From assembly GCA_020846435.1 (NCBI GenBank), contig JADLDY010000012.1, positions 1 to 64,000 on the forward strand: a stretch of DNA of 64,000 nucleotides. The letters are read 5' to 3'. The position numbers and the translations under genes were made by a program. The DNA comes from Deltaproteobacteria bacterium. GTDB lineage: Bacteria; Desulfobacterota; GWC2-55-46. Positions within the stretch are counted from its first letter, which is position 1. Each line of letters opens with the position of its first letter. Positions 2,969 to 12,333 of this stretch are shown in pieces. The notes beneath the pieces are model-generated. The model was not told where the DNA came from and made no database searches. It saw only the letters and a program-made list of their open reading frames with translations.

Positions 2969-3526
2969 TTACTGTATCTTCGCTGTCACCTTGTTGACTA
3001 TGAGCTCTTCGACCTTCGAGGCAGGTTTTTTTACGAACGGCTGGTAGATGTTCGCCATCTTCGTCCGGTATTCGTTCCATGTGAGTATGCCCGCTTCCCT
3101 CGCTGTCTCAAGGGCCGCAAGCTTCGCCTGAAGCCCGGCGCGCTTTTCCTCGGGAAGGGTTTTTGCCCTCGCTTCGCTCAGCTCGATTTGCATCTCGCGG
3201 AAGGCTTTGAGCCCCTTTTGCACCGCGTAGGCAGTAAGGCCGGTAGCCAGAAGCGGCAGCGCAACTGAGAGGAACTTGTAGGTGTTGGAGCTGACCACGT
3301 GGGTGCCGCCCTGGATAAAGCCCCATTCGGCGAGAGTGCCTTTAATCGGGGAGGCGGTGAACGTCGACATCACCCACGCGCCGGCGAGGATGCCGGCAAG
3401 GGCGCTAACGCTCGGTATCTGGTTGAAGATCTGCCTGTTGATGAACTGCAGGAGCTCTTTCAGCTCGTTTCTGGTTTCGCCGGGCGGCTTGCGCGGTGTC
3501 TGAAAAAAATCGTCCATCCTGTCCAT
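2969..3526 (-). CDS. Unknown membrane protein, tandem paralogue 1 (SHOCT-like tail)
   Basis: I do not recognise a named family. The 185-residue protein has a charged N-terminus, two hydrophobic segments (about 38-62 and 82-105), a helical charged linker, and a short C-terminal module (about 135-160, LETAREAGILTWNEYRTKM) resembling SHOCT domains, short oligomerisation modules with a G-I/L-x-T/S-x-x-E/D-[YF] pattern. The downstream-numbered neighbour (3588-4145) is a clear paralogue of exactly the same length: both share PSxSALxGILAGA, SPxK and a closing IV.K.T motif. Both genes run on the minus strand and end at a terminator shared with the CDF gene. A membrane-associated role is all the sequence supports. 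Confidence 0.75.
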   Translation of the reverse strand: MDRMDDFFQTPRKPPGETRNELKELLQFINRQIFNQIPSVSALAGILAGAWVMSTFTASPIKGTLAEWGFIQGGTHVVSSNTYKFLSVALPLLATGLTAYAVQKGLKAFREMQIELSEARAKTLPEEKRAGLQAKLAALETAREAGILTWNEYRTKMANIYQPFVKKPASKVEELIVNKVTAKIQ

Positions 3527-3587: not shown

Positions 3588-4145
3588 TCAGCTCGTAAGT
3601 TTTTTTACGATGAATTCCTGAAAGCCCGATGGCAGCTTGCCGCTGTGCGGCTGGTAGAGGCCCGCGAGCTTTGTTTCGTACTCGCCGTCGGTCAGAAGCC
3701 CCTTGTTCTTCGCTTCTTCAAGCAGGGCGCGCTTTGAGGCGAGCTCTGAGAGCTTTTCCTTTTCAAGCAGCGAGGAGGCCTCAATGTACCTTTCGAGACG
3801 CTTCTTCCGGTAGGACTTCAACGTTTTTTGCGCGACATAGATAGTCGCCGCCGCGGAAAAAAGCGGAAGGAAGACCGAAAGGAGGCTGTGCGCGACAGGG
3901 CTCGCTACCTTTGCGCCGGCGTCTGTGTTCACGATGCCGAAGAGCGCCATCATGGACTTTACCGGAGAAGTCGCGAACGCGGAGGAAACGAGCGCGCCGG
4001 CGAGGATTCCGGAGAGGGCGCTCATGCTCGGCACCTTGTTGAAAAAGTGCTTTGTCGCGAAGCTCATGAGCTCCCTCGACTCCCCTGAGAGCCTGCCCAT
4101 GTCAGCGCTTATCCTTGTCACGGCGTCAGTAAAATGCCTTTCCAT
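3588..4145 (-). CDS. Unknown membrane protein, tandem paralogue 2 (SHOCT-like tail)
   Basis: Paralogue of the gene at 2969-3526. The open frame extends further upstream, but starting at ATG 4145 (MERHFTDAV) gives exactly 185 residues and brings the shared motif PSMSALSGILAGA to the same distance from the N-terminus as in the sister protein, so I prefer this start. Layout is the same: amphipathic N-terminus, two membrane segments, helical linker, then a SHOCT-like module LLEEAKNKGLLTDGEYETKL (about residues 143-162) and a short conserved end. The gap between the two genes is only 61 bp, suggesting one transcript after a tandem duplication. No enzymatic motif is visible and no function is assigned. 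Confidence 0.72.
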   Translation of the reverse strand: MERHFTDAVTRISADMGRLSGESRELMSFATKHFFNKVPSMSALSGILAGALVSSAFATSPVKSMMALFGIVNTDAGAKVASPVAHSLLSVFLPLFSAAATIYVAQKTLKSYRKKRLERYIEASSLLEKEKLSELASKRALLEEAKNKGLLTDGEYETKLAGLYQPHSGKLPSGFQEFIVKKLTS

Positions 4146-4223
4146 AAGAAACACCCCGGTATATTTCGAGCCCATAGAAGAGCTGGGCCTCAATCTTTCA
4201 TCAGGCCCGTAATTTTAATTACT

Positions 4224-4357: not shown

Positions 4358-5017
4358 ATGTTTTTTAAGCGCGAAAAGCCGTACGACCGCAAGACCTGCC
4401 TGGAGGCCGCCGCAAAGGCACAGGAGCGCGGCCGTTTGAAAAAAGCGGTGAGCCATTACATGCGCGCTCTCGACGCTGACCCTGAGGACCACTTTGTGCA
4501 CGCGAAGGTTGCCCCTTTGCTCGCGCAGATGAAAAAGTTCGAGGAGGCGTGGGCGAGCTTCAAGGCGGCGGCTTCCAACCACTTCGCGTCAGGTTTCGGC
4601 AACAAGGCGATAGGCGTATATTCGCAGGCCGTGAGGTTCATGCCGAGAAACCCTGAGGTCTGGGAGGCGATGGCCCATGTCTACATCCAGCAGGGCAGGA
4701 AGGCTGACGCTGTCGCAACCCTCTACAAGGGGCACGGATTTTTCAGGAACGGGCCTGACAGGGCTAAGGCCGTCTCGATGCTCAGGAAGGCCTTTGCACT
4801 GGAGCCCTGGAACTTCCATGTTACCTTTGATCTCGCCAGACTCGTGAAAAAACAGGACCCGGTGGAGGCTCTCGGCCTCCTTGAAGGGCTCTCTGGCCGC
4901 TCTGAAGGGCGCGACCTGAGGAAGGTGCGCTCCGCCATGTTCCGCGCCGAGCCGAGCGTCACGATGGCATGGCAATGGCTCAAGACCGCGTGGACCCACT
5001 CCCTCAGGGCCGCTTAA
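4358..5017 (+). CDS. TPR-repeat protein
   Basis: A cytoplasmic protein of 219 residues built of tetratricopeptide-like helices. Recognisable units include AAKAQERGRLKKAVSHYMRA followed by LDADPEDHF, then a second unit with VYSQAVRFMPRNPEVWEAM, and a third with FALEPWNFHVTFDLARL. Such repeats form a superhelical scaffold for protein binding; there is no catalytic domain and no signal peptide. I start at ATG 4358 because GAGAGG lies 6-10 bases upstream, whereas the longer frame from 4310 begins with an unlikely peptide and no binding site. The next gene's open frame overlaps the 3' end. Partner unknown. Confidence 0.75.
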   Translation: MFFKREKPYDRKTCLEAAAKAQERGRLKKAVSHYMRALDADPEDHFVHAKVAPLLAQMKKFEEAWASFKAAASNHFASGFGNKAIGVYSQAVRFMPRNPEVWEAMAHVYIQQGRKADAVATLYKGHGFFRNGPDRAKAVSMLRKAFALEPWNFHVTFDLARLVKKQDPVEALGLLEGLSGRSEGRDLRKVRSAMFRAEPSVTMAWQWLKTAWTHSLRAA

Positions 5018-5601
5018 GCTCTCAATCGGCTCTTCCGCCGCCTATCTTCCTGTTTTTACTACTCTTTTTGCCTTGTACGGCGCTATCAGCCGCCGTACAA
5101 GGCGTTCCCTCTGAAAAAAAACTTGTGTTGAGCCGGCCGCGCGGATATCCTGTATTGAACAGGATGAAAGAAAAAGTGCTCAAATATTTCCTCGTCAAGC
5201 CGGGCGGCCAGAAAAAGCGCGAGGACAAGGCTTTCTGGATGACCGACAACGGCGATAACTGGATAGATGTCGCCAGGAGCCGCTGGAAGGACAAGCACGC
5301 CGAGGACGAGGTTCTCGAGGTCGTCAGCGAAGAGCACTACACGCTTCTCGACTGGCGGAAGACGCCATATTACACGCAGGATATCGCATCCGGCTGGCTT
5401 TCAAGGGAGGGCAGGTTCTACGGCTGCCCGACCTACTGCCATGACGTCCTCGCGTGGTGCGTGCTTGGTATGAAGGTGCCTGAACTGGAAAAGCTCGGTT
5501 GGGTGCGCATCTACTCGGAGAGCTGGTACGTATGCCAGGTGAGGCTTTCCGCCGAGCAGAAGAACTGGCTCTCCATGAACGGTCATAAGATCATAGATTA
5601 A
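4969..5601 (+). CDS. Hypothetical exported protein (start uncertain)
   Basis: Not recognised. The frame has a strongly hydrophobic stretch IFLFLLLFLPCTALSAA (codons for about residues 26-42 of the longest form) that looks like a signal peptide core with an Ala-x-Ala end, followed by a basic region and a C-terminal half rich in Trp, Tyr and Cys (YGCPTYCHDVLAWCVLGMK). The longest start, ATG 4969, overlaps the TPR gene by 49 bp. The alternative ATG at 5164 would drop the signal and has no proper ribosome binding site. A perfect 13-bp inverted repeat lies exactly within the signal-peptide codons, so that part might instead be intergenic. The C-terminal 140 residues are the dependable part. Homologues would settle the start. 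Confidence 0.55.
   Translation: MAMAQDRVDPLPQGRLSSQSALPPPIFLFLLLFLPCTALSAAVQGVPSEKKLVLSRPRGYPVLNRMKEKVLKYFLVKPGGQKKREDKAFWMTDNGDNWIDVARSRWKDKHAEDEVLEVVSEEHYTLLDWRKTPYYTQDIASGWLSREGRFYGCPTYCHDVLAWCVLGMKVPELEKLGWVRIYSESWYVCQVRLSAEQKNWLSMNGHKIID
5070..5103. repeat. Perfect 13-bp inverted repeat
   Basis: GCCTTGTACGGCG (5070-5082) and CGCCGTACAAGGC (5091-5103) are perfectly complementary across the 8-base loop CTATCAGC. There is no T run on either side, so it is not a normal terminator. It falls about 50 bp after the TPR stop codon and inside the putative signal-peptide codons of the next frame. Confidence 0.8.
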
Positions 5602-5746: not shown

Positions 5747-6619
5747 ATGGCAAAGGTATGCGAGCTCCTCGGCAGCCTCTCGGAGATGGAAGAGACTGCC
5801 GCGAGAATATATTCGAAGGCGGCTTTGGCTGTAAAGGACGACACTGGCCTGAGGGAGCTCCTTGAAGGGCTCGCGCTCGAAGAGCTCGAGCACAAGAGCC
5901 TGCTCTCGGATTTCGGTGTGTTCATAAGCTCTTCCGGTGTAGAGTGCGTGCTCTCTCTTGACGAGGACGCGGTCAACAGGACAAGAGACTACCTGTCGGT
6001 CGCCGAGAAGAGGATAGACGCCGGACGGCTTACCAACGGCAACCTGATAGACTGCATCGCGACCACGGAGTCCTCCGAATGGAACAGGGAGTTCCTCAAA
6101 GTGGTGGACTGGTTCAAGCTGAGTTCAAGGAGCTTTATTCCGGGGATAGCCCGCGTCCAGCAGCACAAGAGGTCGGTCGAGAGATTTCTCGTCTCCAGGC
6201 CCGGCTTTGAAAGGTTCCTTGTTGGAATGAAGTCGCTCTCTGCGGCCTGGGTCGAGAAGCTTCTTGTCGTCGATGACGACGAGTCTGTTGCCGTCTCTGT
6301 CGCGGCCCTGCTCGCGGACGAGGGGAGGGTCGATATCGCGTCTGACGGAGAAGAGGCGCTCGAGAAGATAGGCTCTGGCTACTACGCCGCCATTGTAAGC
6401 GATTATTCGATGCCGCTGATGAGCGGGATGGAGCTTCTGGACAGGGCTGAAGAAAGGTTCCCCGGCATCTCCAGAAGGTTCCTTTTTTTCACTTCTGACG
6501 AAGAGATGGTAGATGTCTTCAGGGACAGGGGGGTGAGGGCGCTCCATAAGCGCGCGAGCCCGGCGGAGCTGTCCGCCGAAGTAGCGGCGATATTGAGCAG
6601 GGCGGCCCCGGCGCGCTGA
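5747..6619 (+). CDS. Ferritin-like domain fused to a response-regulator receiver domain
   Basis: A 290-residue fusion. Residues 1-150 are all-helical and resemble a ferritin-like/rubrerythrin four-helix bundle: an early E-rich helix (E13, E15, E16) and EELEH at 45-49, giving an ExxH pair as in diiron sites. The second half-site is not clear (E108 and E111 but no second ExxH), so the metal centre may be incomplete. Residues 170-285 are a CheY-like receiver: acidic D176-D178, phospho-acceptor D219 in VSDYSMP, T249 and K268. There is no output DNA-binding domain. The cognate kinase is not adjacent. It may be a phosphorylation-controlled iron, oxygen or redox sensor; this is inference. ATG 5747 is the only sensible start. 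Confidence 0.8.
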   Translation: MAKVCELLGSLSEMEETAARIYSKAALAVKDDTGLRELLEGLALEELEHKSLLSDFGVFISSSGVECVLSLDEDAVNRTRDYLSVAEKRIDAGRLTNGNLIDCIATTESSEWNREFLKVVDWFKLSSRSFIPGIARVQQHKRSVERFLVSRPGFERFLVGMKSLSAAWVEKLLVVDDDESVAVSVAALLADEGRVDIASDGEEALEKIGSGYYAAIVSDYSMPLMSGMELLDRAEERFPGISRRFLFFTSDEEMVDVFRDRGVRALHKRASPAELSAEVAAILSRAAPAR

Positions 6620-6650: not shown

Positions 6651-6926
6651 CTATTGCTTGAAAAGGTCCTTGAGAGAGGCGAGCGGGTCTTTATCGGGCG
6701 CTTTTCCCGGCGCGTTTGAGAGCTCGAAGAACTCGCAGAAGTTGGCCCTGTCCTTTTCAACGACCCTTTCGGCTGACGGCTCGCGGCACTGGTTGTACGC
6801 CCCGGAGTCGTAGAACCTGCAGTTGAGGCATACCTTTACGTTAGAGCCGCATTTGGGGCAGCTCTCGCCTCTGCCGGGCCTTGCTCCGGCATCAAGCTCT
6901 TTTTTGCAGTGGAAGCAGTTTGCCAT
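6651..6926 (-). CDS. Small zinc-ribbon protein
   Basis: A 91-residue protein with two cysteine clusters. C4-x2-C7 pairs with C23-x2-C26 to form a zinc ribbon, and a second set (C33-x2-C36, then single cysteines in NQCREP and ANFCEFF) looks like another metal-binding knuckle. The C-terminal tail is charged and ends in a short helix (LASLKDLFKQ). Function is unknown. It converges with the receiver-fusion gene (31 bp apart) and is divergent from the ahb genes, with its start 30 bp from the ahbA start, so the two share a very short regulatory region. Confidence 0.8.
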   Translation of the reverse strand: MANCFHCKKELDAGARPGRGESCPKCGSNVKVCLNCRFYDSGAYNQCREPSAERVVEKDRANFCEFFELSNAPGKAPDKDPLASLKDLFKQ

Positions 6927-6955
6927 TGACTTATCTTATCACCGGGGAAAATGAA

Positions 6956-7507
6956 ATGGAATACCTCCGGTGCCGGCGGCTGGAGGGCCTTGCTTTAAAA
7001 AATGTCCGTCATTTCCGGCAGCCTTATCCCATGCTTTACGCGGAGGAACTCATGTGCGGGGCGATAGGCGGACTCGAAGCGCTCGTTTTGAGCCGCATAC
7101 TCGGGGACTTCCCCATAGCAGAAGACCCTTACTCTGAGATCGGCCGCCCCCTCGGCATAAGCGCGGCGGAGGTCCTGTCTATTGTCCGCGGGCTTGTTGA
7201 AAGGGGCGTGGTGAGGAAGGTCGGCCCGTTTTTCAACCCCTGGAAGATGGGGCACGTCTCGACCCTGTGCGCGCTCGACGTGCCGGGCGAGGCAGTCAAG
7301 GAGGCCGCCTCCCTGATAAATTCCTACCCTGAAGTCACGCGCAACTGCCTCAGGGACGGGAGCCCGAACCTGTGGTTCACGGTAATGGCCGAGTCAAAGA
7401 CGGCCATGGGGAAGGTCATCGCTGAAATTGAGACAAAGGCAATGAGAGGCCCTGTGCGCGCCATTCCCGCCATCATGATGTTCAGGGTGAAGGCAGGGGT
7501 TAAGTGA
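6956..7507 (+). CDS. ahbA: Siroheme decarboxylase subunit A-like (Lrp/AsnC fold)
   Basis: A 183-residue AsnC/Lrp-type protein of the NirDLGH/AhbAB group, which removes two acetate carboxyls from siroheme to give didecarboxysiroheme in the alternative heme pathway (and in d1 heme synthesis). The winged helix portion (EIGRPLGISAAEVLSIVRGL) and the family motif VTRNCLRDGSPNLWFTVMA are visible; the usual HNYLRE-type motif reads RNCLRD here. ATG 6956 is preferred over the longer frame because GGGGA lies about 7 bases upstream and the longer frame would overlap the zinc-ribbon gene. A second paralogous subunit follows 10 bp later, the normal AhbA-AhbB arrangement. The later radical-SAM steps (AhbC, AhbD) are not in this window. 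Confidence 0.85.
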   Translation: MEYLRCRRLEGLALKNVRHFRQPYPMLYAEELMCGAIGGLEALVLSRILGDFPIAEDPYSEIGRPLGISAAEVLSIVRGLVERGVVRKVGPFFNPWKMGHVSTLCALDVPGEAVKEAASLINSYPEVTRNCLRDGSPNLWFTVMAESKTAMGKVIAEIETKAMRGPVRAIPAIMMFRVKAGVK

Positions 7508-7517
7508 GGTGGTCTGG

Positions 7518-8009
7518 ATGGATAAGAGGGACATCGAACTCATAAGGGCGCTGCAGAAAGGGGAGATATTCCTGACAGAGCGCCCCTTTCACGAGGCGGC
7601 CCGCCTCCTCGGCTGGACCGTCGACGAGGTGCTGGAGCGCACGAGGCGGCTTAAGGAAACGGGCGTCATAAGGAGGATTAGCGCGCTCCTCGCCCCTGGG
7701 AGCGCTGGCTCGACCAGGGGTACTCTCGCTGTCTTTGACGTGAGCGATTACAGGGCCGAAGAGACAGGCTCGCTGATGTCGGAGCACCCGAGAGTCACTC
7801 ACTGCTACATAAGGCAGAGGTTCGAGGGCTTTCCCTTCAACATATACGCTACAGTATGCGCCGAAACCGATGAAGGCCTGGCGCGCTCCGTTGAGGAGCT
7901 TGCTTGTGTTGCTGCCCCGTCCCCATACAGGGCTCTCAGGACCGTGCTTGAATTCAAGAGGAGCTCGCCGGTCTACTACACTCTTTCGCTCGACGCCCCT
8001 GCTTCTTGA
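7518..8009 (+). CDS. ahbB: Siroheme decarboxylase subunit B-like (Lrp/AsnC fold)
   Basis: A 163-residue second subunit of the heterodimeric siroheme decarboxylase, related to the preceding gene. It has a winged-helix start (DKRDIELIRALQKGEIFLTE), the segment GVIRRISALLAPG and the pair-diagnostic motif VTHCYIRQRFEGFPFNIYATV, where a histidine and tyrosine sit at the positions expected near the siroheme. I start at ATG 7518 with GAGGTG about 8 bases upstream rather than GTG 7509. It is followed after a short gap by a copper chaperone and a caa3 oxidase, so heme formation and heme-protein assembly are neighbours. It could in principle serve d1 heme synthesis, but no other nir genes are present. 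Confidence 0.85.
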   Translation: MDKRDIELIRALQKGEIFLTERPFHEAARLLGWTVDEVLERTRRLKETGVIRRISALLAPGSAGSTRGTLAVFDVSDYRAEETGSLMSEHPRVTHCYIRQRFEGFPFNIYATVCAETDEGLARSVEELACVAAPSPYRALRTVLEFKRSSPVYYTLSLDAPAS

Positions 8010-8039
8010 CTGAACAGTTTTACCTGATATATTCAGAAT

Positions 8040-8849
8040 GTGCGAACACTTGAGCCTATCGTGCATATGATCCGCCGCCATCTCCCCGGCCTTGTCTGCC
8101 TCTTTTTTTCCATATTTCTTCTCGCACAGCCGCTCTGCGCCCTTGAAACCGCTCCAGGCGTGACCGAAAGGACTGGGGAGAGAGTACCGCTCGATGCCCT
8201 GTTTACTGACGAGACAGGCAAAAGCGTGGCTCTCGGAGCCCTGCTTGGCAAGCCCGCCATACTCTCTTTCGCCTACTTCAGCTGCGAGGACCAGTGCAAT
8301 ACGGTGCTCTCGAACCTCGCTTCCTCTCTTGGCAGGATGTCTTCGGCCCCGGGGGATGATTTCCTTGTTCTGACGGTCAGCTTTGACGACGAGGACACCC
8401 GGGGAGAAGCCGCGTACAAGAAAAAGAATTACATGAGCGCGGCCGGAAGGCCAATGGATGAAGGGGCCTGGAAGTTTCTTACGGGCGACAAAACTTCGAT
8501 TGAGGCGCTCACTGGAGCAATAGGGTTCGGCTTCAGGAAGACAGAGAAGGGTTATGACCACCCTGCCGCCTTGGCCGTTCTTTCCGCCGACGGCAGGATA
8601 ATAAGGTATGTCTACGGCAGTTCGTATCTGCCGGCAGACCTTGAGATGGCGCTGATGGAAGCCCGCGAGGGCAGGATAACCGCCTCAATCAAAAAGGCCG
8701 CGCGCTTTTGCTTCAGCAGCGAACCCGGCGGCAGGGCCTATCTCGTTTCAGTCCTGAGGGTCGCCGGCCTTTCAACGCTCGTGGTGGTGGCAGGGCTCTT
8801 TATCTATCTTAAGGGTTTTGGCAGGCCCGGCAAAAAGGATAAGAGATAA
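8040..8849 (+). CDS. SCO1/SenC-type copper chaperone
   Basis: A thioredoxin-fold protein of about 269 residues that delivers copper to the CuA site of cytochrome oxidase subunit II. It carries the copper-binding CxxxC as C82-E-D-Q-C86 and the third ligand H174 in KGYDHPAAL. The N-terminus has a signal peptide (RRHLPGLVCLFFSIFLLAQ), and a C-terminal membrane helix (about 240-260) probably anchors it with the domain outside. The frame begins at GTG 8040, but ATG 8067 gives a more ordinary signal peptide; neither has a strong binding site. The stop codon overlaps the oxidase subunit I start (TAATG), so translation is coupled. Confidence 0.9.
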   Translation: MRTLEPIVHMIRRHLPGLVCLFFSIFLLAQPLCALETAPGVTERTGERVPLDALFTDETGKSVALGALLGKPAILSFAYFSCEDQCNTVLSNLASSLGRMSSAPGDDFLVLTVSFDDEDTRGEAAYKKKNYMSAAGRPMDEGAWKFLTGDKTSIEALTGAIGFGFRKTEKGYDHPAALAVLSADGRIIRYVYGSSYLPADLEMALMEAREGRITASIKKAARFCFSSEPGGRAYLVSVLRVAGLSTLVVVAGLFIYLKGFGRPGKKDKR

Positions 8850-10462
8850 TGGCAGCCGACAATACAAGGGGTATAAGGGAAGGGTATCTCGCCTCTGAGC
8901 CTGGCAAGGGTTTTATCGCCTCATGGCTCCTGACGACCGACCACAAGAGGATCGGGATACTCTACCTTTTTTCCATCCTCTCGTTCTTTCTCGTAGGAGT
9001 AGTCTTCGGCCTCCTGATGAGGCTCGAGCTCATCTCGAGGGGGCCGACCATAATGGAGGCCCACACCTATAACGCGTTTTTCACGCTCCACGGCGTTATA
9101 ATGCTCTTCTTGTTCATCATCCCTGTCGTGCCAAGCATCTTCGGCAACTTTCTCCTCCCAATAATGATAGGCGCGAGGGACGTCGCTTTTCCGAGGCTCA
9201 ACCTCCTCTCATGGTATTTCTACATGGCAGGGGCGCTTCTTGCCCTGACGACCCTTATCATAGGCCCGGCTGACACTGGCTGGACCTTCTACGCACCTTA
9301 CAGCTTGAGGACAGGTTCGAGCGTCTCACTCGCGGTCTTTTCAGTCTTTGTCCTCGGCATCTCTTCCATTCTTACGGGCCTGAACTTCGTCGTGACCGTG
9401 CACAGGCTCCGCGCCCCGGGCATGACATGGTTTCGCCTGCCCCTTTTCGTCTGGTCGCTGTACGCCACAGCCTGGATACAGATAATCGCGACCCCGATAC
9501 TCGGCGTCAACCTCCTCCTCGTCATGGCCGAAAGGTTCTTCGGCATAGGGGTCTTTGACCCGGCCAAGGGAGGCGACCCGATACTCTATCAGCACCTCTT
9601 CTGGATATACTCGCACCCTGCCGTTTACATAATGGTGCTCCCCGCGATGGGCGCGGTCTCCGAGATAGTGCCTGTTTTCGCCAGAAGGGTCATCTTCGGG
9701 TACAAGGCCATAGCATACTCTTCCATAGGCATAGCGGCGGTCGGCTCTCTTGTCTGGGGCCACCACATGTTCGTGAGCGGATTCAGCTACACGGCCGCCG
9801 TCTATTTTTCGCTCTTTACATTTTTTGTCGCCATACCGAGCGCGATAAAGGTCTACAACTGGGTGGGCACCCTTTACAAGGGCTCCATTGTAATGGACAC
9901 GCCATTCTATTTCGTGCTGGCCTTCATATTCCTTTTCTCGATAGGCGGGCTCTCAGGGCTCATCCTCGGCGCCCTATCTGTCAATGTCCATCTCCATGAC
10001 ACCTATTTTGTCGTAGCCCATTTCCACTACATAAAGTTCGGAGGCGCGGGGTTCGGTATGCTGGCCGCGCTACACTACTGGTTTCCCAAGATATCCGGCA
10101 GGATGTACAACAAAAGGGTCGCCAACTTCGCTCTCGTCTTTCTCTTCATAGGCTTCAACACGCTCTACTTCCCGATGTTCATCCTTGGTTATGAGGGCAT
10201 GCCGAGACGTTACTTTGATTACCTGCCGCAGTACGTGTTGTGGCAGCATGTCTCCATCGTCGGGTCGTGGATACTCGGGGCTTCAATATTCACCATGATA
10301 GGCAACCTTCTGGTTGCCGCGTTCAGGGGAGCGGCCGCCCCAATGAACCCATGGGGCGCCAGGACCCTCGAATGGCAGGTATCTTCCCCGCCTCCAAAGG
10401 AGAACTTCGAGACCATCCCAGAGGTGACTCGCGGGCCCTACGACTTCAGGGAGGGCGCATGA
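8849..10462 (+). CDS. ctaD: caa3 cytochrome c oxidase subunit I (A2-type)
   Basis: Heme-copper oxidase core of 537 residues with about 12 membrane helices. Metal ligands seen: H81 (heme a) in FTLHGVIM, H256 of the YSHPAVY motif with cross-linked Y260 (CuB), H305-H306 (CuB) in WGHHMFVSG, H391 (heme a3) and H393 (heme a) in VVAHFHYI. The motif reads YSHP rather than GHPE, which places it in the A2 group that lacks the glutamate at the end of the D channel. It reduces oxygen to water and pumps protons. The gene is flanked by the SCO gene (1-bp overlap) and by subunit III (4-bp ATGA overlap). Confidence 0.97.
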   Translation: MAADNTRGIREGYLASEPGKGFIASWLLTTDHKRIGILYLFSILSFFLVGVVFGLLMRLELISRGPTIMEAHTYNAFFTLHGVIMLFLFIIPVVPSIFGNFLLPIMIGARDVAFPRLNLLSWYFYMAGALLALTTLIIGPADTGWTFYAPYSLRTGSSVSLAVFSVFVLGISSILTGLNFVVTVHRLRAPGMTWFRLPLFVWSLYATAWIQIIATPILGVNLLLVMAERFFGIGVFDPAKGGDPILYQHLFWIYSHPAVYIMVLPAMGAVSEIVPVFARRVIFGYKAIAYSSIGIAAVGSLVWGHHMFVSGFSYTAAVYFSLFTFFVAIPSAIKVYNWVGTLYKGSIVMDTPFYFVLAFIFLFSIGGLSGLILGALSVNVHLHDTYFVVAHFHYIKFGGAGFGMLAALHYWFPKISGRMYNKRVANFALVFLFIGFNTLYFPMFILGYEGMPRRYFDYLPQYVLWQHVSIVGSWILGASIFTMIGNLLVAAFRGAAAPMNPWGARTLEWQVSSPPPKENFETIPEVTRGPYDFREGA

Positions 10463-11070
10463 GCAAGCCGCATGACATCTCTCACAGGGACTATACCGGC
10501 GCGAAGCTGGGCATGTGGCTATTTCTCTTTACGGAGTTTTTCCTGTTCTTCGGCCCGGTGCTCCTTTACGCTGTATTCCGTTTCAGGTACCCGCATGCCT
10601 TTATCGACGCGAGCCTCAAGCTCGACGCCGGGGTCGGCGCTCTCAACACGGTGATACTCCTGACGAGCAGCCTTTGCATGGCGCTCGCCATTACTGCCAT
10701 GCAGAGGGGCAGGAAAGGGCTCACGCTCTTTCTCCTCGCCCTCACAGTCACCCTCGGCTCCTTCTTCCTCGTGAACAAGTATTTTGAGTGGGGCGCGAAG
10801 TTTGCTCACGGACTGTATCCCGGCGGAGAGGCCCTTGCCGGCAACGCCGACGGCACGGCCATATTCTATGGCCTGTATTTCTTTACGACCGGGCTTCACG
10901 GCCTTCATGTGTTAGCTGGCATGGCCATAATCATAGGCGCGGCCCTGATGGTGCATGAAGGCAGGATAAACTCGACTGACTTTGTAAAGCTCGAGAACAC
11001 CGGCCTCTACTGGCATCTGGTCGATGTTGTCTGGATATTTTTGTTCCCGGTATTCTACCTTGTAAGGTGA
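10459..11070 (+). CDS. ctaE: Cytochrome c oxidase subunit III
   Basis: A 203-residue membrane protein with about five helices, of the shorter subunit III form found in caa3 and bo3 oxidases. Family features are the N-terminal KLGMWLFLFTEFFLFFGPV and the closing ENTGLYWHLVDVVWIFLFPVF, with FTTGLHGLHVLAGM in between. It supports the stability of the subunit I proton-pumping core. The open frame continues upstream inside ctaD, but ATG 10459 overlaps the ctaD stop as ATGA, a normal coupled start. Subunit IV follows after 3 bp. Confidence 0.95.
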   Translation: MSKPHDISHRDYTGAKLGMWLFLFTEFFLFFGPVLLYAVFRFRYPHAFIDASLKLDAGVGALNTVILLTSSLCMALAITAMQRGRKGLTLFLLALTVTLGSFFLVNKYFEWGAKFAHGLYPGGEALAGNADGTAIFYGLYFFTTGLHGLHVLAGMAIIIGAALMVHEGRINSTDFVKLENTGLYWHLVDVVWIFLFPVFYLVR

Positions 11071-11073
11071 CGG

Positions 11074-11367
11074 ATGGACGCAAAAGAGACAAAAGAGCGT
11101 ATCGTCGGGGCTCCGACGCTCTTTGCGGTCTGGGCGGCTCTCCTGGGGCTCACATGGCTCACGGTCGACCTTTCCGGCAAAGGCATGGCTATCTTTGTTC
11201 TGGCGGCCCCGTTCCTTATCGCCTCTGCCAAGGCGTTCCTTGTAGTCGACTATTTCATGCGCCTTAAATACGAGCCGAGCATTTTCAGGTACATCTTCCT
11301 GATCGTCTTCGGAACGATTGCCGTTGTTTCTTTTCTCGTGTATCAGGATGTGGCTTATAGACAGTAG
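11074..11367 (+). CDS. ctaF: Cytochrome c oxidase subunit IV
   Basis: A small 97-residue membrane protein with three hydrophobic helices, matching the prokaryotic cytochrome oxidase subunit IV family in size and in the segment AKAFLVVDYFMRLKYEPS, which lies between helices 2 and 3. It is an accessory subunit with no redox centre. The gene starts 3 bp after ctaE and precedes the subunit II gene by 33 bp, completing an I-III-IV-II order. Assignment rests on both sequence pattern and operon position. Confidence 0.9.
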   Translation: MDAKETKERIVGAPTLFAVWAALLGLTWLTVDLSGKGMAIFVLAAPFLIASAKAFLVVDYFMRLKYEPSIFRYIFLIVFGTIAVVSFLVYQDVAYRQ

Positions 11368-11400
11368 TAAAAGACATACGAGCAGGTAAGGTAATTGAAG

Positions 11401-12333
11401 ATGTTCTCAGCGGCAACCTCCATAGGTAAAGAGACCGACCTGGCCTTCTGGGTGATAACGGGCATCTCAGCCGTCTTGTTCATCCTTATCATCTTCTTCA
11501 TGCTCTATTTCGTCTACAGGTACCACCACAGGAGAAACCCTTCAGCCAGCGACATAGAAGGCAACTCCACGCTCGAGCTCTCGTTCATGGGGATATCCAT
11601 AGTCCTCGTGCTTGCCATGTTCTTCTGGGGCTGGGACGGCTACAAGACTATGAAAGGGGCGGCTCCCGCAGGCTCTCTTGAGGTGAAGGTTACAGGCCAG
11701 ATGTGGCTGTGGACCTTCGAGTATCCTGATGGACGGCGTTTGAACGAGCTCGTACTGATGAAAGGCGCTCCAGTGAAGCTCAGACTTTTCTCAAATGATG
11801 TCATCCACAGCTTTTATGTGCCTGCCTTCAGGATAAAGCAGGACATTATCCCCGGTTCCGAAAAGACCGTCTGGTTTACCCCTGACGCGGCCGGTTCGTT
11901 CGATCTTTTTTGCGCCGAGTACTGCGGCACCAATCATTCATCCATGATAACCAGGGCCATAGTCGTGGAAGAGGCGGACTATAACGCGTGGCTCGCCGGG
12001 AAAAAAGAGCTCGGCGCGGCTTCAAAGGCAAAGCCGTCGTCAAAGGCGGCCCTCGGCAAGGAGCTCTACGCTACAATGAGCTGCAGCGCGTGTCACTCCA
12101 TCGACGGCTCTTCCGGTATCGGTCCGACCTTCAAGGGGCTCTTCGGCAAGAAGGAGAGGGTCACGACGAACGGGAAAGAGCGCGTTGTCACGGTCGACGA
12201 GGCATACATAATGAAGTCCGAGCATGAGCCCACGGCCGATGTGGTCGTCGGCTTCCAGCCGGTTATGCCGCCTTCTCCTCTCACCGATGAGGAGATAGGG
12301 GCGGTCATCGAGTTCATCAAGACGCTCAAGTGA
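11401..12333 (+). CDS. ctaC: caa3 oxidase subunit II fused to cytochrome c
   Basis: A 310-residue subunit with two N-terminal membrane helices, a cupredoxin CuA domain outside the membrane and a C-terminal cytochrome c domain. CuA ligands are H136 in DVIHSFYVP and C171-A-E-Y-C175 with the following GTNHSSM (His and Met). Covalent heme c binds at C228-S-A-C231-H232 with M289 (FQPVMPP) as the likely sixth ligand. The fused heme domain is what defines caa3 enzymes: it takes electrons from the quinol:cytochrome c branch and passes them to CuA. ATG 11401 is preferred over TTG 11395 because AAGG lies about 8 bases upstream. CtaA, CtaB and CtaG genes are not nearby. Confidence 0.96.
   Translation: MFSAATSIGKETDLAFWVITGISAVLFILIIFFMLYFVYRYHHRRNPSASDIEGNSTLELSFMGISIVLVLAMFFWGWDGYKTMKGAAPAGSLEVKVTGQMWLWTFEYPDGRRLNELVLMKGAPVKLRLFSNDVIHSFYVPAFRIKQDIIPGSEKTVWFTPDAAGSFDLFCAEYCGTNHSSMITRAIVVEEADYNAWLAGKKELGAASKAKPSSKAALGKELYATMSCSACHSIDGSSGIGPTFKGLFGKKERVTTNGKERVVTVDEAYIMKSEHEPTADVVVGFQPVMPPSPLTDEEIGAVIEFIKTLK

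Follow-up and report, generated by a model that had tools for sequence, protein, structure and literature searches.

To our knowledge, the diiron sensors known from bacteria have hemerythrin or flavodiiron-like folds, and ODP has a metallo-beta-lactamase fold. The ligand set E, ExxH, E, ExxH is not present in every member of the ferritin-like superfamily. In Treponema denticola, ODP serves as a diiron O2 sensor that is coupled to a chemoreceptor (PMC7666581). Sulerythrin (SulE), a rubrerythrin-type four-helix bundle, coordinates its metals through Glu20, Glu53, His56, Glu92, Glu95, Glu126 and His129 (PMC12851003). In the E126A variant of sulerythrin, the two irons are kept, a hydroxo bridge and open sites are gained, and a peroxo ligand is trapped upon exposure to O2 (PMC12851003). 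Iron moves upon oxidation in sulerythrin and in other bundle proteins, including rubrerythrin (PMC12851003).

The window, that is, the whole stretch of 64,000 nucleotides analysed here (Deltaproteobacteria bacterium, contig JADLDY010000012.1), carries a gene that joins a ferritin-like domain to a receiver and is called FLD-REC in the following (Table 1). It belongs to a little-noticed bacterial family in which a predicted iron-binding ferritin-like bundle is fused directly to a CheY-type switch, probably for the input of iron, oxygen or peroxide status into two-component signalling. The gene shares 67-68% identity with its two nearest relatives over 285 residues or the full length. The NG86 estimates of dN (0.24-0.25) and dS (1.2-1.5) give a ratio of about 0.2, alike for both domains; judged by these substitution rates, it is a genuine coding gene under purifying selection.

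Table 1. Features of the FLD-REC gene and its downstream neighbours, with positions in the window.
Feature	Position	Strand	Basis
FLD-REC gene (ferritin-like domain + receiver)	5747..6619	+	ATG to stop, 290 aa
N-terminal ferritin-like domain, residues 1-163	5747..6235	+	AlphaFold2, VIA, hhalign
E15, predicted metal ligand, helix A	5789..5791	+	E in 62 of ~68 members; SulE Glu20 equivalent by alignment
E46-x-x-H49, ExxH of helix B, predicted ligands	5882..5893	+	E46 in 67 of 68, H49 in 62 of 68 members
E108-x-x-E111, ExxE of helix C, predicted ligands, rubrerythrin-type	6068..6079	+	E108 in all, E111 in 65 of 68 members
V137-x-x-H140, helix D	6155..6166	+	H140 in 67 of 68 members; 137 hydrophobic where rubrerythrins carry the bridging Glu
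CheY-like receiver, residues 170-287	6254..6607	+	Pfam PF00072; VIA Z 18.4 to NtrX receiver
D176-D178, receiver acidic Mg site	6272..6280	+	Translation; 176/177 acidic in most members
D219, predicted phospho-acceptor	6401..6403	+	Asp conserved in 45 of 49 members
T249 and K268, receiver switch residues	6491..6550	+	T/S249 in 44 of 49, K268 in 46 of 49 members
Zinc-ribbon-like small protein, convergent neighbour	6651..6926	-	Weak Pfam zinc-ribbon matches; tblastn
Two siroheme-decarboxylase-type (NirDL/AhbAB-like) genes, downstream	6881..8009	+	Pfam PF22451, PF17805
SCO1 and cytochrome c oxidase genes	8040..12333	+	Pfam SCO1; tblastn linkage to FLD-REC in several genera

Structurally, the N-terminal domain is modelled with helices at residues 4-28, 33-63, 73-91, 97-110, 114-126, 128-149 and 155-162. 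The AlphaFold2 models have a pLDDT of 90.6 for the full protein and, for the N-terminal domain alone, a pLDDT of 89.8 and a pTM of 0.85. In VIA-align, the best PDB match of the N-terminal model is TM1526 (1vjx), a ferritin-like diiron-carboxylate protein, over 142 residues at 2.7 A, with a Z of 13.4, a value near the borderline for helical bundles; the next ranks are mainly YciF, ferritin, Dps-like and bacterioferritin chains. Foldseek gave no significant match for the same model (best E 0.19), and its list also included 3ezu, a GGDEF protein.

The sequence profiles point to the same superfamily. The Pfam Rubrerythrin profile (PF02915) matches the window protein with E 0.099 and 13.5 bits, below the gathering score of 22.8, and is matched at E <= 1 by 17 of 29 family members, with a best value of 1.6e-5. 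A profile built from 30 N-terminal domains retrieved ferritin-like, rubrerythrin-like and designed diiron four-helix proteins from the PDB (best E 8.6e-7). In hhalign, the family N-terminal profile matched canonical rubrerythrin-like proteins with E 3.3e-8 and a standalone ferritin-like set with E 3.6e-15, and the predicted ligand residues line up with those of rubrerythrin-type proteins. Pfam detected neither an HHE-type Hemerythrin match (PF01814) nor the rubredoxin-like domain of classical rubrerythrins in the window protein. Taking fold, profile and ligands jointly, the modelled N-terminal domain is ferritin-like. The first-pass annotation had proposed a ferritin-like N-terminus, which the profiles, the confident models and the match to TM1526 support; the predicted structure of residues 1-163 is the opposite of the non-ferritin bundle that it had named as a refutation. 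Assignment as a rubrerythrin proper was rejected, because the window protein lacks the bridging Glu and scores under the Pfam cut-off.

The ExxH at E46 and H49, noted in the first pass, is present at both positions, and the metal-ligand pattern extends beyond it to E15, E108xxE111 and H140, which are also invariant or nearly so. By alignment, E46 and H49 are the equivalents of SulE Glu53 and His56, and we infer that E108 and E111 correspond to SulE Glu92 and Glu95. Over 69 family sequences, conservation of the N-terminal domain is highest in nine columns: E108, Y22, E46, H140, N113, E111, L42, H49 and E15. All six candidate ligands thus lie within the top nine of 163 columns, with a chance probability of about 3.5e-9 for positions that were chosen from rubrerythrin homology and with some hindsight. 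Position 137 is occupied by I, V, M or L in 45 of 49 members and by T or S in the remainder. The family set consists of four Glu and two His, the rubrerythrin set minus the glutamate of the last ExxH; relative to the standard diiron set of iron-binding ferritin-like members (E, ExxH, E, ExxH), the second ExxH glutamate is absent and E111 is extra. Every sulerythrin ligand except Glu126 has a counterpart in the FLD-REC family, which by analogy is a natural counterpart of sulerythrin E126A. Because both irons stay bound in that variant and a peroxo ligand is trapped, it is plausible that the four-Glu, two-His site, as a predicted metal site, would be able to react with O2. A bundle minus one standard ligand could also hold one metal, another metal, or none.

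The C-terminal receiver is matched by the Pfam Response_reg profile (PF00072) at residues 173-279 with E 2.7e-11 and 44.1 bits, the curated cut-off being 30.2, and the match lists of full-length fold searches were taken up by receivers. No DNA-binding or other output domain besides the receiver was detected by Pfam in the 290-aa protein, which agrees with the earlier description of a complete CheY-like receiver lacking a DNA-binding output. The residues listed there (D176-D178, D219, T249 and K268) were correctly placed, with the acidic pair, the phospho-accepting Asp, the Thr and the Lys all present. The genome carrying the window has 35 HATPase_c matches (HATPase-containing proteins), with no cognate partner evident among them.

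A first search, run over 59 relatives, detected the N-terminal domain in 37 genomes. By profile, 41 of the 63 genomes in the host's class carry FLD-REC, often in at least two copies per genome and in up to five (G008), and there are a few strong members elsewhere in the phylum (G133, G320, G334, G151). Nearly all strong matches lie within open frames of about 280-390 aa, that is, with the receiver included, and the extracted members have both domains; the search for the same architecture proposed at first pass therefore shows a fusion that recurs as a family and is not a one-off. Three other phyla were sampled with 398, 195 and 199 genomes, the latter two sets without a positive control; the profile had one weak match there (E 6.5e-11), in a protein that stands alone and has no receiver. 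This single receiver-less match in the sampled genomes speaks against a family that is widespread among phyla. The first pass had known of no described protein with this domain order, and we likewise found no description of a ferritin-like bundle fused to a receiver in the open-licence literature.

Both domains are readable in 67 members. Both sites are intact in 47 of these; in 10 the ligands occur together with a receiver that is not canonical, 5 have kept the receiver but an incomplete ligand set, and in the other 5 both sites are incomplete. The association between the intactness of the ligand set and that of the receiver is weak (Fisher p 0.04, on sequences that are related and in some cases fragments). 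Because of the 10 and 5 members that keep one site without the other, bundle and receiver are not always coupled. A tandem pair in genome G037 (L101, G037:C32) comprises genes at 7523-8431 and 8517-9389, separated by 85 bases. The first gene keeps the EEHEEH ligands and has lost the phospho-Asp; in the second, the receiver is intact and the ligand site is gone. As one case, this split pair suggests that the two functions may be separable yet retained together.

No partner or operon conserved across the whole FLD-REC family was found, and most members are orphan genes; a conserved operon partner was accordingly rejected, none being common to the family as a whole. In the window, a convergent small gene separates FLD-REC from downstream siroheme-decarboxylase-type, SCO1 and cytochrome c oxidase genes. 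A small zinc-ribbon-like gene lies beside FLD-REC at L088, L094, L095, L096, L178 and L179 (tblastn), its position being kept in several genomes from two groups. Linkage to SCO1 and cytochrome oxidase genes was also seen by tblastn in G012 and G019, both of them syntenic with the window, as well as in several genomes of genus g6, some of which have SCO1 alone near FLD-REC, and in G151, which represents another class. In G001, FLD-REC adjoins cytochrome D1 (heme d1), radical SAM and cytochrome c genes. The G151 locus (L124, G151:C242, 875-5168) holds a run of Fur, hemerythrin, FLD-REC, a small rubrerythrin, a rubrerythrin with a rubredoxin domain, AhpC and Rrf2, and the cytochrome oxidase genes come after Rrf2. 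The AhpC gene of this run is seemingly split by a frame change. At loci of G008 (L171, 5763-8928) and G027 (L167, 5176-8373), a chemoreceptor (MCP) gene, in G008 confirmed by Pfam as MCPsignal plus HAMP, lies immediately 5' of FLD-REC and on the same strand, which suggests a chemoreceptor as the partner for this subgroup. As a whole, the neighbours give hints of respiration and of iron, oxygen and peroxide or oxidative-stress signalling.

Upstream of FLD-REC, the window also contains two adjacent paralogues of about 185 and 201 aa (2969-3526 and 3588-4193, both on the - strand) without a significant Pfam family, a pair that is also found in G001. The gene just upstream of FLD-REC (4969-5601, + strand) has no Pfam match and is kept beside FLD-REC in G001 (82%) and G005 (55%).

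We postulate that FLD-REC would act as a soluble adaptor in signalling, with a rubrerythrin-type bundle for the input and the C-terminal receiver as the switch. E15, E46, H49, E108, E111 and H140 are predicted to form a dinuclear iron site, and since V137 stands in place of the second bridging glutamate, this site would be expected to have open coordination positions like those of sulerythrin E126A. The packing of the bundle would change once iron is loaded or the site reacts with O2 or peroxide, and this change would be transmitted via the conserved linker to alter the phosphorylation, dephosphorylation or protein contacts of the receiver. The phosphorylating kinase would be one among the cell's ~35 HATPase-containing proteins. 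In the manner of single-domain regulators, the receiver would then contact a partner protein, such as a kinase or a chemoreceptor, and so convey the iron or oxygen status. To the core of this proposal, a diiron sensor bundle for Fe, O2 or peroxide that modulates its receiver, with its predicted metal identity, ligand chemistry, direction and partners, we assign a probability of about 0.5. Ligand conservation, the ferritin-like fold, the alignment of the ligands with rubrerythrin-type proteins, a receiver that is intact in most members, iron- and O2-related neighbourhoods, the chemoreceptor genes preceding the G008 and G027 copies and the split pair of G037 argue for it. Against it stand the missing standard ligand, the lack of a partner common to the family, and the members in which one site is kept and the other is not. 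More tentatively, the family may form an undescribed two-component class, in which an open-coordination rubrerythrin-type diiron site detects iron, O2 or peroxide and gates the receiver directly, and kinase and metal together make a two-input switch.

Control could also run in the reverse direction, with a kinase-phosphorylated receiver switching a ferritin-like enzyme (a peroxidase or ferroxidase) on or off and the bundle as the output. A single effector domain is the classical response regulator layout, the ligand set resembles that of peroxide-reducing rubrerythrins, and rubrerythrin and AhpC genes are neighbours of the copy in G151. We nevertheless regard this direction as rather unlikely: neither a rubredoxin nor another electron-donor domain is fused, the ten members with degenerate receivers keep all ligands, and the missing bridging Glu speaks against ordinary peroxidase chemistry. 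Between sensor-to-receiver and receiver-to-bundle control, we tentatively prefer the former. The functional part of the first-pass reading, a receiver gating a metal or redox module or a bundle reporting iron or oxygen status, is plausible. About as improbable, and slightly more so, is a bundle of ferritin-like descent that acts as a structural dimerisation or partner-docking module, its Glu and His residues binding a structural metal without any signal. Ferritin-like proteins often form dimers or cages, and a structural metal would explain the conserved ligands equally well, but the residues kept are those of the redox-active site, including the ExxE of helix C, and the neighbouring genes concern O2, iron and peroxide.

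The weak Foldseek E-values and the middling Z-scores that are usual for helical bundles would fit a ferritin-like resemblance arising by chance in, for example, an Hpt-like or dimerisation domain. This explanation is largely refuted and appears very improbable, as the profiles, the ligand spacing, the near-invariance of the six ligands and the mostly ferritin-like list of structural matches concur. An Hpt-like or generic dimerisation bundle as such was ruled out by ligand conservation, profiles and structural matches.

If the sensor reading is true, a ferritin-like diiron bundle with a receiver would be a further sensor fold, and metal or oxygen status would reach two-component signalling with no dedicated sensor kinase. 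A direct prediction on O2 chemistry follows from the natural lack of one bridging glutamate, and the dependence of the domains on each other can readily be tested on natural split pairs and degenerate copies.

Compared with known systems, FLD-REC shares with rubrerythrin and sulerythrin (PF02915) the four-helix bundle and the E, ExxH, ExxE and helix-D His aligned with the SulE ligands. Unlike these proteins, it has a hydrophobic residue in place of the helix-D bridging Glu, a fused receiver and no rubredoxin domain. With single-domain and other CheY-like response regulators it has in common a complete receiver without a DNA-binding output, but it carries a predicted metal-binding domain N-terminal to that receiver. 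Hemerythrin-type diiron sensors, such as BRUTUS (PMC12022348), are work-alikes in that a diiron helical bundle senses iron or oxygen, but they differ in fold family and ligand set and have no receiver fusion. ODP is likewise a work-alike: the coupling of this diiron protein to an MCP at the genetic level is comparable to that of the FLD-REC copies of G008 and G027; in contrast to FLD-REC, it is a separate protein and has no receiver. The closest sequence relatives found for the bundle are the standalone ferritin-like proteins L071, L145 and L070 (alignment A4). They share with it the E, the ExxH, the helix-C E (which sits in ExSExN in L071 and L145), the helix-D His and the absence of the last ExxH Glu, but are 160-217 aa long and have no receiver. 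Standalone proteins of this type are a possible source of the fused domain.
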